NCBI GenBank assembly: GCA_022865845.1
Contig: JALHUC010000085.1
Location: 1-10,698, forward strand
Direction of reading: 5' to 3'
DNA: 10,698 nucleotides
Source: a bacterium
GTDB lineage: Bacteria > BMS3Abin14
This document shows positions 222-6,543 of the stretch, in pieces. The position numbers and the translations under genes are program-made. Under the pieces are notes generated by a model that searched no databases, was not told the origin of the DNA, and worked only from the letters and a program-made list of their open reading frames with translations. Positions within the stretch are counted from its first letter, which is position 1, and each line of letters begins with the position of its first letter.

Positions 222-242
222 AATTCCAAATTTCAAATTTCA
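222..242. repeat. Heptamer tract, 3 units (AATTCCA / AATTTCA / AATTTCA)
   Basis: Three consecutive 7-bp units starting at 222, 229 and 236, followed by an A-run. It lies in the yajC-tgt gap. The same unit family recurs at 6463-6490. Confidence 0.7.
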
Positions 243-251
243 AAAAAAATT

Positions 252-371
252 TCTCACGCTCGCTTGTTTCACTTGCTCAAGACGCCAAGGACGCAAAGAA
301 GATCAAAAGAATGGTTCGTGGAAAAATAATGTTTCAGTTTTTCTTTGCTAGCTTTGCGTCTTTGCGTGAGA
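252..371. repeat. Imperfect inverted repeat with GACGCAAAG / CTTTGCGTC arms
   Basis: Two nested complementary pairs are visible. TCTCACGC (252-259) pairs with GCGTGAGA (364-371), and GACGCAAAG (290-298) pairs with CTTTGCGTC (352-360). The right arm contains CTTTGC at 343, 352 and 360, a period of 8-9 bp rather than the 7 bp seen elsewhere in the window. The structure occupies most of the gap between the tgt stop and yajC. It has no T-run typical of an intrinsic terminator. Confidence 0.6.
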
Positions 372-437
372 TCGAATTTTTCGCTTTCATGGAAACCGTT
401 CAGTTCCCAGTGTCACCGCGCTTGCCACGCCGTAGCT

Positions 438-1580
438 TCAGCGAAGGCGGGTCACGGCATCAGGTCGATCCGACTCATCGCCGGAATTCCAACCTTCCCC
501 CACCTGTTTCTTATAGTCGGCAAAAGATTTTTCAAGGGTCGCTTCCCGCGCCCCGGATACAAGTTGGTGATAATAACTCAAATTGTGAATTGTGCAAAGC
601 CGAAATCCCAGCATCTCACCGGTCATGTACAGGTGTCTCAGGTAGGCGCGACTGAAGTTAAGGCAAGTGTAACAGGAACAGTCAGGATCGGGGGGCCCAA
701 GGTCATCCTTCAGGGCGTTAACCTTTACAGAAAGCCTTCCACGGCTTGTAAAAAGGGTGCCGTTCCTGGCGTTTCTTGTTGGCATGACGCAATCGAACAT
801 ATCTATGCCCCGCTCGATCCCGTCGAGAAGATCCATGGGGGTCCCCATTCCCATAAGGTAACGGGGACGGCTCTCGGGAAGGACCGTTGTAGTGCTTTTA
901 ACCGCTTTCCACGTCTCTGCCCGGGGTTCTCCCAGGGCAAGTCCCCCCACCGCATATCCATCGAACCCCATTTCCATGAGCCCCTGGGCTGACTCGACTC
1001 TCAGATCGAGAAATGTCCCGCCCTGAACGATCCCGAAGAGGGCCATTTTCTGGCTGGTTCTGGAGTGAAGGCACCTTTGGGCCCATCTTCTGGTCCTTTC
1101 TACCGCTCCAGCCATGGTTTTCTTGTGGGAAAGAGGATCAACCACCTCGTCCAGGCACATGGCAATGTCGGTGCCCAGCTGCTCCTGTATGGAAACGGAC
1201 AACTCCGGAGTTATGTTGTGTCTGTCACCATTCAGGTGGGACCGGAAGGTAACACCCTCCTCGGTAACCTTGGCTAGTTCCGACAGACTCATGATCTGGA
1301 ACCCTCCGCTGTCGGTGAGAATGGGGCCATCCCAGCCCATGAAACGGTGGAGTCCCCCCAGGCGTTGAATGAGTTCGGAACCTGGTCTCAGATACAGATG
1401 GTAGGTGTTGGAGAGGATCATGGTGGAACCGCTATCTGCAAGTTCCGAAGGCGTAACAGTTTTCACGGCCCCGTAGGTACCTACAGGCATAAAAACCGGC
1501 GTGAGTACCTGTCCGTGACCGGTTTCAAAGACGCCAGCCCTGGCGCCGGATGGATCTGTTTTCAGTAGAGTAAATTTCAC
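438..1580 (-). CDS. tgt: tRNA-guanine(34) transglycosylase (queuine tRNA-ribosyltransferase)
   Basis: Exchanges guanine 34 in the anticodon of Asp, Asn, His and Tyr tRNAs for preQ1, the base-exchange step of queuosine synthesis; cytoplasmic. Residue numbers use the GTG 1580 start (380 aa, close to the family's usual ~375). The family motifs are all present: [22 protein letters not shown] (D90), GIVQGG, and [14 protein letters not shown] with the nucleophilic Asp D263. The zinc site is CSCYTC (C301, C303, C306) plus H332 in TIHN. I chose GTG 1580 because homologues begin [16 protein letters not shown]. The frame is open back to ATG 1631, but those 17 extra codons ([19 protein letters not shown]) are encoded mostly by a heptamer tract. 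GGAGG lies just inside that ATG, 44 bases before GTG 1580, so the true start is uncertain. The gene lies between queA (155 bp upstream) and yajC. Confidence 0.95.
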
Positions 1581-1583
1581 GCC

Positions 1584-1618
1584 GGTTTCAGTTCCAGGTT
1601 CCACGTTCCATGTTCCAG
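1584..1618. repeat. Heptamer tract, 5 units (GTTCCAN)
   Basis: Units start at 1584, 1591, 1598, 1605 and 1612: GGTTTCA, GTTCCAG, GTTCCAC, GTTCCAT, GTTCCAG. The tract separates the minus-strand GGAGG (1625-1629) from the apparent tgt start at 1580. It is complementary in type to the GGAAC tract at 1704-1731. Confidence 0.85.
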
Positions 1619-1624
1619 GAATAA

Positions 1625-1629
1625 CCTCC
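1625..1629 (-). promoter_or_regulatory. Displaced Shine-Dalgarno GGAGG of tgt
   Basis: GGAGG on the minus strand, overlapping ATG 1631 (ATGGAGG). It is the only good Shine-Dalgarno near tgt, but it is 44 bases from GTG 1580, and the heptamer tract lies between them. It is therefore either a displaced ancestral site or a site serving a short upstream reading frame. Confidence 0.45.
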
Positions 1630-1703
1630 ATTAAATTATTTTATCTTTATCTTGTTTGCCTTCTTACCTTATTTCTGTTCATTAGAAAACAATTACGCCT
1701 TGC

Positions 1704-4913: not shown

Positions 4914-6404
4914 ATGACTTTAAGCTTCGTCAGTATTATCCTGTTCGTACTCGTTGTCCTTTTGGCAGGAGCACTGATCTATACGTTCAGTTACCTCCAC
5001 CGCCTGAACAGGGCCTCGCAACATCCCGCAGACAAGGAAACCCTCCCCTCGATCCCCTCTTCCTCGCTGCCGGTCCTTTCAAACATTTCAAACCGCATCG
5101 CTTTGCTGTCCGAATCCCTCACCGAGCAAAAAAGGGTGGAGAGTTACCGGCAGAAGATGACAGCCATGGAAAAACAAGAAATCGCCCACCTCCTGGAGAA
5201 GGAAGCTCTCTCCCGGCAACTGGAACGTCAACTGGATGAAACCAGGCAGGCCAACCTGATGGTCTCGGGCCTTAACCAGGATCTGGAGGAGATCAATGCC
5301 AGCCTGAACGAAGCCATCAATCGCCTATCTGCCCTGAACCAGATCAGCCGAATGCTGGGAATGGAGCACGACAAGAAGCAGATCTACAGCATGGCCGTCT
5401 CCCTGCCGGTAGAACTCCTTAAAGCTGAAATCGGTCATTTGATGCTGCCGGAAGTTGAAAAGAACAACCTGGTTGTTGAGTTCTCTCTTGGGCTTGCAGA
5501 GACGAAGAGCGGTACCAAACATTCGGTCTCGGCCGGTAAGGGACTTGCCGGTTGGGTGGCCTCAAACAAGAAATCCCTCCTGGTGGAAGATTTTGACAAG
5601 CAGGAACGCTTCCCTTTGGCAAGTAGTATGGGTTACAGACGACGCACCGCAATTTCGGCTCCTATCATGATCAAGGACGAACTTATCGGAGTTATTTCCC
5701 TTATTAACAGGAAAGACGGTACATGCTTCTCAGATGAAGACAGGACCCTGCTTGCTACCATCGCCTCTGAAACAGCCATGGCCATTAACAATGCTTTGCT
5801 CCTCGAAAGGATACAGAGGGGTTATTTTTCCATGGTTCAGTCCCTCATCGTTGCCGTTGAAGCAAAGGATGTATATACCAAGGGCCATTCGGAGCGGGTT
5901 ACACAGTACTCCCTGCTCATCGGCGAACAGATGGGGCTCGATATGGACCAGCTGGAGATCATACAGCAGGCGGGAGTTCTTCACGACATCGGGAAGATCA
6001 CTGTTGAGTTGAGCATCCTGAACAAACCCACCTCTCTGGATAGCGATGAGTATAATAAGATAAAGGACCATCCTCTCACCGGTTTCAGGATCCTCGAGCC
6101 CATCGACTTCAGCGAGAAGATCAAAATGTGTGTACTCCAACATCATGAGCGGATCGACGGTTTGGGGTATCCCAACGGTTTCGAAAGTGAGGACATCCTG
6201 CTTGAGGCCAAGATCCTGACCGCTGCGGATGCTTTCGACGCGATGACTACAAAACGCCCATACCGTGACCCTCTGAGCGTCCTGGAGGCCTTGCGCGAGA
6301 TAGACCGATGCTCGGGGACCCAGTTCGACCCGGAAGTCGTTGAGGTCTTGACCCGAGTGATCCACGCTCTGACGAGCTCGGGTGGGGTGGCGTTATTGCA
6401 GTGA
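4914..6404 (+). CDS. Membrane-anchored GAF/HD-GYP protein (predicted c-di-GMP phosphodiesterase)
   Basis: Predicted to hydrolyse cyclic di-GMP at the cytoplasmic face of the inner membrane. The 496 residues comprise one N-terminal membrane segment (about 4-26), a coiled coil (about 75-140), a GAF domain (about 140-295, with GLAGWVASNK and APIMIKDELIGVISL patterns) and an HD-GYP domain (about 300-485). All HD-GYP signatures are present: GHSERV (H325), HDIGK (H357, D358, K361), DHPLTG (H386), HHERIDGLGYP (H410, H411, D415, G418-P420) and DAFDAMTTKRPYR (439-451). The catalytic site therefore looks intact. The GAF ligand is unknown. The start is ATG 4914; it lacks a good Shine-Dalgarno, and GGGGGGAG lies about 50 bases upstream across a short semi-repetitive stretch. 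The gene converges on the histidine kinase gene and is probably its own transcription unit. Confidence 0.93.
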   Translation: MTLSFVSIILFVLVVLLAGALIYTFSYLHRLNRASQHPADKETLPSIPSSSLPVLSNISNRIALLSESLTEQKRVESYRQKMTAMEKQEIAHLLEKEALSRQLERQLDETRQANLMVSGLNQDLEEINASLNEAINRLSALNQISRMLGMEHDKKQIYSMAVSLPVELLKAEIGHLMLPEVEKNNLVVEFSLGLAETKSGTKHSVSAGKGLAGWVASNKKSLLVEDFDKQERFPLASSMGYRRRTAISAPIMIKDELIGVISLINRKDGTCFSDEDRTLLATIASETAMAINNALLLERIQRGYFSMVQSLIVAVEAKDVYTKGHSERVTQYSLLIGEQMGLDMDQLEIIQQAGVLHDIGKITVELSILNKPTSLDSDEYNKIKDHPLTGFRILEPIDFSEKIKMCVLQHHERIDGLGYPNGFESEDILLEAKILTAADAFDAMTTKRPYRDPLSVLEALREIDRCSGTQFDPEVVEVLTRVIHALTSSGGVALLQ

Positions 6405-6423
6405 CCCTGGAAGGGTCACTGCA
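6397..6423. terminator. 11-bp perfect hairpin overlapping the HD-GYP stop codon
   Basis: TGCAGTGACCC (6397-6407), loop TGGAA, then GGGTCACTGCA (6413-6423), with no mismatch. The stop codon TGA (6402-6404) lies inside the left arm. No T-run follows on either strand, so it is not a canonical intrinsic terminator. It may be an mRNA 3'-end stabiliser or a bidirectional block in this convergent gap. Confidence 0.55.
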
Positions 6424-6425
6424 TG

Positions 6426-6453
6426 AGTCCAAAGTCCAAAGTCCAGAGTCCAA
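6426..6453. repeat. Heptamer tract, 4 units (AGTCCAA)
   Basis: Units AGTCCAA, AGTCCAA, AGTCCAG and AGTCCAA start at 6426, 6433, 6440 and 6447, directly after the hairpin at the HD-GYP stop. Confidence 0.88.
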
Positions 6454-6462
6454 AGAAAAATC

Positions 6463-6490
6463 AATTCCAGATTTCGGATTCCAAATTATA
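6463..6490. repeat. Heptamer tract, 4 units (AATTCCA / GATTCCA)
   Basis: Units AATTCCA, GATTTCG, GATTCCA and AATTATA start at 6463, 6470, 6477 and 6484. It belongs to the same unit family as 222-242, six kilobases away. Confidence 0.75.
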
Positions 6491-6491
6491 C

Positions 6492-6513
6492 CCGGGGAGA
6501 CTCGGCTTTTTTT
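6492..6513 (+). terminator. Probable intrinsic terminator of the HD-GYP gene
   Basis: CCGGG (6492-6496), GNRA-type loop GAGA, CTCGG (6501-6505, one G-U pair), then C and seven Ts (6507-6513). The stem is short but the T-run is good. It is oriented for the plus strand, about 90 bp after the HD-GYP stop, and would shield the convergent kinase gene. Confidence 0.55.
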
Positions 6514-6529
6514 GTGCCTGAAAGGACCA

Positions 6530-6543
6530 GAACGCAGGACGCA
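6530..6543. repeat. Short heptamer tract, 2 units (GAACGCA / GGACGCA)
   Basis: Two units at 6530 and 6537, followed by a diverged third (GCACTGA), ending three bases before the histidine kinase stop codon. It is the same family as 2794-2821. Confidence 0.55.

Follow-up and report, generated by a model that had tools for sequence, protein, structure and literature searches.

Four-unit heptamer arrays with changing words in the intergenic spacers of a BMS3Abin14 bacterium and its congeners

Among the tandem heptanucleotide repeats of bacteria are the STRR repeats, the heptanucleotide repeats of heterocystous cyanobacteria. Three heptanucleotides are present in a single genome of Calothrix (PMC4692102). 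In Geobacter metallireducens, the putative binding sites of global regulators (classes 1 to 3) are tandem repeats of a 7-9 bp unit in three to five copies, and most of them have a partner on the opposite strand, the distance between the two being variable. Class 3 contains five heptamers MTYCTGA in 15 of its 16 sites, the class 1 consensus has a free base at its end, a 49-copy element is made of four heptamers, and binding and bridging by a regulator are offered as a hypothesis (PMC2700814). The GGGAATC repeats of Xanthomonas are heptamers of the form GGGANTN with free positions, the majority having four units, and convergent arrangements of two neighbouring sites number 70 in Xcc and 75 in Xac (PMC4692102). 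The TAACTGA repeats of Beggiatoaceae form intergenic sets of two to six heptamers, mostly near gene starts, and are also found in some distant taxa; the same paper summarises the work of Mrazek et al. (2007), in which a heptanucleotide excess was noted in scattered taxa and slippage with a polymerase footprint was proposed (PMC4679880). Paired tandem heptamers are already known, and unexplained, from Geobacter and Xanthomonas. Here we describe tandem arrays of period 7 in the spacers of a 10,698-nucleotide stretch of DNA from a bacterium of the BMS3Abin14 lineage (contig JALHUC010000085.1, assembly GCA_022865845.1), the whole of which is called the window below, and in the spacers of its relatives.

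These arrays resemble the Geobacter sites in their three to five short tandem units and, for the paired arrays only, in the opposite-strand partners at variable distance. The Geobacter sites, as described, fall into few classes in one genome, whereas many cores and a peak at four units are observed here, together with an inward rule at gene borders, an A-rich inner end and the replacement of words at orthologous spacers. Heptamers with a free position, a preference for four units and convergent pairs are shared with the Xanthomonas GGGANTN repeat, but the latter is one G-rich word read as a quadruplex, whereas the words described here are many, mostly without G runs, and replaced between species. 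The TAACTGA repeat of Beggiatoaceae is reported as one word with one inverted case and similar words rarely repeated, unlike the many paired words of this study, and the cyanobacterial STRR repeats are likened to ours solely in having several heptanucleotides per genome. Long simple sequence repeats share the period-7 excess, but the plan found here, with two arms, four units and a free base, does not follow from slippage. In the literature searched we found no description of an inward, word-swapping four-unit plan; relative to that literature, what is new is the variety of words, their construction from six bases plus one, the inward orientation at gene borders, the A-rich end and the replacement of words between sister species.

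The window is the entire contig C569 of genome G000 (2.86 Mb in 662 contigs), which was compared with a sister genome of the same genus (G001) and with a second congener (G002). Tandem Repeats Finder (TRF) reported period-7 arrays in all six spacers from yajC to the histidine kinase gene. Thirteen tracts with an exact 7-bp period had been listed in the first-pass annotation; eleven of them were recovered as period-7 arrays with edges a few bases off, whereas the tracts at 4206-4240 and 6463-6490 scored under 30 and are missing from the TRF list, although both are degenerate heptamer tracts by eye. The spacing is indeed exact, but the copies are mostly inexact. The spacers 8119-8161 and 8537-8744, described as lacking tracts, contain no array in the TRF output. 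Over the eight spacers of the window, identity at lag 7 reaches 0.394 (z 12.4 against mononucleotide shuffles), with harmonics at lags 14, 21 and 28 (z 10.1, 6.5 and 5.0) and no comparable excess at the remaining lags from 2 to 30 (z -3.4 to +2.1), while the coding DNA of the window has a 3-bp rhythm only and no lag-7 signal. The peak at lag 7 confined to spacers is what the first-pass annotation had anticipated.

The genome-wide excess anticipated with it was sought in samples. Strict arrays with periods of 4 to 15 were counted in sampled DNA free of open reading frames (ORFs) from G000, G001 and G002, with one Markov simulation per genome; the G000 sample was 190 kb from 40 contigs, 13 of which read as N and 27 of which were readable. 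Period 7 accounted for 92 of the 109 strict arrays (13/14 in G000, 51/61 in G001 and 28/34 in G002), and none of the three simulations produced a period-7 array. The gene calls behind the strict-array counts, the types of spacers and the inward orientation at starts and stops follow a crude longest-ORF rule; 30 more period-7 arrays lie within called ORFs (4 in G000, 14 in G001 and 12 in G002), some of them because this rule picks an early start. The first G000 sample (40 contigs, 27 readable) held 45 arrays. With a looser cut-off, the density per 100 kb is 32 in G000, a value that takes in several contigs picked for earlier search matches, 22 in G001, 35 in G002, 5-10 in G003 to G005 and 25 in G006 (32 kb only), as compared with 2.5 in 761 kb from 80 named loci, most of which are gammaproteobacterial, and 1.2 in 22 loci from other families.

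The period is fixed genome-wide and mostly intergenic while the word changes, as had been proposed, and such a constant plan with a changing word makes one motif for one protein insufficient as an explanation. The word does not vary freely, however, as the first-pass annotation had it, since ATCTCAN, ACGCAGN and CCAAAGN return at many loci. Of 241 genomes, 8 contain three units of CCAAAGN (6 of these belong to the family of the window genome) and 1 contains the period-8 version; three units of ATCTCAN were likewise found in 8 of 241 genomes, 5 in this family, plus G161, G133 and G196. The backward-read controls also gave matches, for CCAAAGN 6 in G000, 7 in G001, 15 in G236, 5 in G212 and few elsewhere, and for ATCTCAN 10 in G000, 5 in G002 and 1 in G006; these may be additional word families.

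The unit of the arrays is a 6-bp core followed by one free base. Twenty-six pairs had both arms detected, and in 17 of them a single column of the 5' arm is the most variable; of the 26 mismatches in the 3' arm, 16 fall in that column, where one in seven would be expected. Across arms, the core columns pair in 540 of 582 cells and the variable column in 38 of 90 (28% expected by composition). Because only pairs of arms that match at 6 of 7 consensus positions were taken, in a register picked to maximise matches, the resulting 93% of the core columns is partly by construction and the 42% of the free column is biased upward; the figure of 16/26 is unaffected by this selection. In exact four-unit arrays, neighbouring free bases are equal in 24 of 82 cases in ATCTCA (39% expected) and in 6 of 30 in CCAAAG (34%) and are thus not copied along the array, while those of ACGCAG (13 of 32, 30% expected) lean toward copying.

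Units were counted in arrays of at least three units with at most one mismatch per core, and their number was judged from the well-populated families only, since rare cores were learned from arrays long enough for detection. Arrays of four units represent 43 of 58 in ATCTCA, 26 of 45 in ACGCAG, 18 of 23 in CCAAAG and 12 of 17 in GTCCAA, and, in smaller families, 9 of 17 in GTAGAA, 6 of 10 in AATGGA and 3 of 5 in GTTCCA. Exact runs of two, three, four, five and six ATCTCA cores number 20, 8, 25, 1 and 1, respectively. When all 89 distinct cores are pooled, many of them rare or noisy and the noise being included in the set, exact runs of two, three, four and five number 463, 126, 103 and 6, that is, a sharp fall past four without a peak.

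Many of the arrays are paired in inverted orientation, which the earlier list of tracts had overlooked. A reverse complement scoring at least 10 within 300 bp was found in the own flanks of 84 of 219 arrays and in swapped flanks for 11 of 219 (37/115 against 6 in G001, 39/65 against 2 in G002 and 8/39 against 3 in G000), and direct copies in own flanks numbered 4, 7 and 3, respectively. For eight recurrent cores, same-core neighbours within 350 bp comprise 29 convergent, no divergent and 4 same-direction cases (2 + 2). Since the 5'-type orientation of the cores was learned from the pairs and from the window, unpaired arrays alone provide an independent test: 69 of 85 face into the spacer (26/28 in ATCTCA, 13/21 in ACGCAG and 30/36 in the other five cores). 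Inward orientation is observed among all 134 classified arrays in 46 of 54 near starts and in 64 of 80 near stops, arrays whose spacer is unbounded within 400 bp being omitted here and among the unpaired arrays, and the median distance is 21.5 bp from the start and 8 bp from the stop. Arrays occupy 97 of 343 tandem, 35 of 84 convergent and 24 of 85 divergent spacers.

On the loop side of 123 arrays, a set that includes arrays whose fourth core is imperfect, A makes up 43-70% at positions +1 to +6 (background 26%), most clearly in ATCTCA and ACGCAG. The gene side is also uneven (G 52% at -2, A 46% at -3), and the flanking composition, for which no terminator scan was run, shows no T run outside the arms; arrays are also present at starts and in divergent spacers. 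Predicted RNA folding of five spacers, compared with shuffles, gave z of -4.9, -3.2 and -0.3 for three spacers of the window and -4.4 and -6.0 for one each of G001 and G002; long stems with an interruption about every seventh base are predicted in four of the five, the third spacer of the window being without.

Comparison of the sister genomes revealed that arrays are lost and replaced. For 20 of the 71 array clusters of the G000 sample, the orthologous interval is contained in the part of G001 that was fetched; their flanks are 78-96% identical. These intervals contain 31 arrays, of which 9 are retained in G001, 1 is intermediate and 21 are not retained, some of the latter being truncated (the left arm of tgt-queA, L241:4706, and 4696-4779 of the window). 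Of the array-free spacers, 13/21 are at least 70% identical, which is a different measure from array retention. At five places the word itself is exchanged: GTGCAGN versus ATCTCAN (L241:1404), GTCCAAN versus ATCTCAN (L241:2377), AGAGTGN versus GGAAGGN (L237:9185), GTGATCN versus GTGAACN (L031:8486) and CAGAATN versus ACGCAGN (L024:6530). Hairpins with different words on both sides were found automatically at L024 and L241:2377 only, and the other three were read from alignments. The two arms of L241:1404 in G000 (GTGCAGN and ACGCAGN-like) match imperfectly, and G002 presents a third arrangement of this region, with a CTTTGG array on one side; the tgt-queA spacer has ATCTCAN arms in G002 as against GTTCCAN in the window. 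The loop is unrelated too at four of the five exchanged places. Arms are kept at spoIID-DUF2065, L031:2547 and L237:5806. Changes in copy number between relatives are seen at tgt-queA and L241:4706, loss and replacement being commoner. The loops of the swapped hairpins have similar lengths (80/84, 77/80, 36/31, 23/25 and 18/21), five pairs being too few for a claim.

Many of the period-7 tracts look like arms rather than copying stutters. We tentatively read them as rapidly replaced intergenic elements whose ends are recognised by a putative protein, a reading that we prefer although we consider it possible rather than probable. Such an element would consist of four repeats of a 6-bp core and one free base, about six A-rich bases, a loop and then the inverse copy; single arms occur too and are commoner than same-core pairs. 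Each core family may represent a DNA site in which four half-sites of 6 bp are recognised at a pitch of 7 bp, three sites spanning 21 bp or two helical turns, and the reader could be a family-specific protein of the transposase, recombinase or nucleoid type. The elements themselves would be non-autonomous insertions or cassettes of small size, and their gain, loss and exchange in the spacers would outpace change in the flanking genes. The plan would be constant because the protein fold is constant, and the word would vary because the protein family has diversified. Protein sites are suggested by the unit of six bases plus one, by the preference for one count and by the inward polarity. That words are replaced, that loops are private and that tandem, convergent and divergent spacers are all used looks more like gain and loss of elements than like a regulatory circuit. 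A known protein that reads unspaced heptads is the omega repressor of plasmid pSM19035, of the ribbon-helix-helix type.

Several observations weigh against this reading. CAGGAG is an exception to the count, with 9 arrays of three and 8 of four units among 22, and also lacks the A-rich inner end; arrays of three or five units are a sizeable minority. The inward rule rests on ATCTCA and is weak for ACGCAG. Pairing is weak in G000 itself, and for 134 of 197 arrays of the eight cores no partner with the same core lies within 350 bp. The L024 loop is homologous (z 6.1) despite the different arms, which argues for change in place; by eye, this loop resembles a promoter. Loops unshared within a core family give no sign of recent copy-and-paste, no autonomous copy or linked transposase was found, and no target duplication was seen by eye in the orthologous alignments, where no systematic test was made. 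Finally, Y1 transposases (PF01797) do not track array content.

Only two pairs of similar loops were detected among 64 loops of at least 25 bp (77 hairpin elements), although single cores recur at many loci; such private loops argue against a miniature inverted-repeat transposable element (MITE) with a shared body, and a mobile element, one of the generators suggested in the first-pass annotation, was rejected for this reason in the form with a common body. Terminal inverted repeats, a MITE criterion, are present in paired arrays. An origin from RAYT proteins and repetitive extragenic palindromic (REP) elements was likewise rejected, PF01797 having no match in G000 and 1-3 matches in 7 of 8 other members of the family. 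REP elements are palindromes, 20-40 bp long, that carry a GTAG or CGTC tag (PMC3733652). Primed synthesis by a polymerase, taken as a reverse transcriptase, found no support either: PF00078 matches only G001 among 13 genomes, without a match in the array-rich G000, G002 and G006, and a reverse transcriptase or telomerase-like source was discarded.

The arms could also be paired operator sites at which a set of global regulators or nucleoid proteins binds and bridges the two spacer ends, selection keeping the cores and leaving the seventh base free. The unit and the four-unit peak do resemble protein sites, and a similar design is described in Geobacter, but orthologous spacers of sister genomes carry different words, mostly with a new loop, arrays sit in tandem, convergent and divergent spacers, and the 89 cores, even if many are rare or noisy, would require many regulators; we regard this explanation as rather doubtful. 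If instead a read-through transcript folded the arms into a long imperfect stem and its message was thereby stopped, cut or shielded, only pairing would matter and the word would be free to vary. The folding of four of the five spacers (z -3.2 to -6.0, the fifth -0.3) and the higher frequency of arrays between convergent genes than in tandem or divergent spacers are in line with such RNA hairpins. However, direct repeats are not required for pairing alone, across arms the variable base is paired far less often than the core bases (38/90 cells against 540/582), unpaired arrays mostly hold the inward orientation too, and divergent spacers carry arrays as well; RNA hairpins appear unlikely.

Slippage of a polymerase on 7-nt units, published as an explanation of abundant heptanucleotide repeats and also named as a generator in the first-pass annotation, accords with the dominance of period 7, the pooled excess of exact twos and threes over fours, the slight copying of ACGCAG free bases above chance and the existence of long perfect arrays. 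It is unsupported for the best-populated families, which peak at four units with a sharp drop beyond and in which the free bases of ATCTCA and CCAAAG are not homogenised, and it leaves the inverted pairing and the inward orientation unexplained; as a general account it is very unlikely. For long perfect arrays it is still a candidate: the perfect GGGTACT tract at 4551-4627, an outlier among mostly inexact arrays, is the window's strongest candidate for slippage expansion, with about 11 units that are absent from the sister spacer. Least probable of all is that arrays are written in place by a sequence-agnostic but pitch-exact activity, which would add a word and an unguided base about four times to both 3' ends of a break in the spacer and finish with an A-rich addition, after which joining would leave inward arms around a filler and sister spacers would share the design and not the words. 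This predicts convergent-only pairs, inward single arms, the A-rich inner end, a shared core with an unshared free base, unrelated loops and both arms changing together. Nevertheless, we know of no enzyme with such an end-writing activity, cores that recur at many loci would need templates in trans and none were found, the lack of PF00078 in the array-rich genomes stands against it, and the homologous loop of L024 does not fit.

The arrays of the window are listed in Table 1. The genes of the window are yajC, tgt, queA, a gene with a SpoIID domain, a DUF2065 gene, a GAF-HD gene and genes for a histidine kinase, a response regulator and a GGDEF protein.

Table 1. Arrays of the window, spacer by spacer, and the anchor gene.
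Feature	Position	Strand	Evidence and comparison
AATTTCA/AATTCCA array, ~3 units, yajC-tgt spacer	222..244	+	TRF; G001 has an ATCTCAN array at near-identical offset
Inverted pair of longer unit (GACGCCAAGGACGCAAAG ... CTTTGCGTCTTTGCG), within yajC-tgt spacer	281..367	.	By eye; TRF reports 352-367 at period 8
5' arm (GTTCCAN)x4, tgt-queA spacer	1591..1617 (TRF 1591-1619)	+	Only two units in G001
3' arm (GGAACNN)x4, pairs with 1591-1617	1704..1731 (TRF 1706-1732)	-	TRF; predicted hairpin z -4.9
queA (PF02547)	1736..2779	-	Anchor gene for finding relatives
5' arm (ACGCAGN)x4, queA-spoIID spacer	2793..2822	+	TRF; retained in G001
3' arm (CTGCGTN)x4, pairs with 2793-2822	2951..2982	-	TRF; not retained in G001
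5' arm (ATTGAGN)x4, spoIID-DUF2065 spacer	4112..4144	+	TRF; retained in G001
Degenerate CTCAAT-type 3' arm, pairs with 4112-4144	4204..4232	-	By eye, outside TRF list; folding z -3.2
5' arm (CAGGAGC)x4-5, spacer DUF2065/HD-domain gene	4457..4490	+	TRF; not retained in G001
CTCCTGG (short match to 4457-4490 arm), then perfect GGGTACT x~11	4547..4632 (TRF 4549-4632)	-	Absent from G001
Fused arrays GTTCACN + GATTACN	4696..4779	.	Three overlapping TRF rows; second partly kept in G001
(AGTCCAA)x4 array beside stop of HD-domain gene	6426..6455	+	TRF; present in G002, not retained in G001
Degenerate ATTCCAN tract	6463..6487	+	By eye, outside TRF list
Short ACGCAGN array at kinase stop	6523..6544	+	TRF; orientation by eye

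The pairing of 4457-4490 with 4547-4632 is weak; the other three pairs of the window are 1591-1617/1704-1731, 2793-2822/2951-2982 and 4112-4144/4204-4232. The G001 spacer orthologous to that of 6426-6455 carries another pair, and the orientation of the array at 6523-6544, judged by eye, breaks the inward rule. Between the HD-domain gene and the kinase gene, a G+C-rich hairpin followed by a T run (6491-6513) looks by eye like an ordinary terminator; it lies in the spacer, away from the heptamer arrays.

Further observations were made outside the window. Several other heptamer arrays are present within 3 kb of the pattern match at L221 (G105) and L231 (G161), which belong to unrelated genomes, and at L233 (G196) two ATCTCA-type arrays in opposite orientation, ~600 bp apart, flank an ORF. 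Arrays of period 8 or 16 with other words (GTGCACNN, TCCGTANN), some of them palindromic, are found at L011:299-329, L016:181-279, L033:1802-3924 and L034:3413-3445; they perhaps represent the same design at a different pitch. At L239:5683-5900, heptamers of the CCAAAG/AGTCCAA type are located in a stretch that is apparently the end of a lysine-rich reading frame and that G001 keeps. A MITE-like repeat of ~165 bp, an imperfect palindrome, occurs on both strands (L154:4355-4520 and 11571-11728; contig C571:1769-2070 of G000), with matches on more than 25 G000 contigs.

The heptamer excess of scattered taxa has hitherto been ascribed to polymerase slippage, following the 2007 proposal as summarised in PMC4679880. 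If in some of these genomes the repeats are arms that have a preferred number of six-plus-one units and whose words change between sister species, the Geobacter and Xanthomonas reports would be joined as describing one kind of object, caution would be called for before such spacers are treated as ordinary regulatory DNA, and one would have to ask which protein or enzyme recognises six of every seven bases, four times over.

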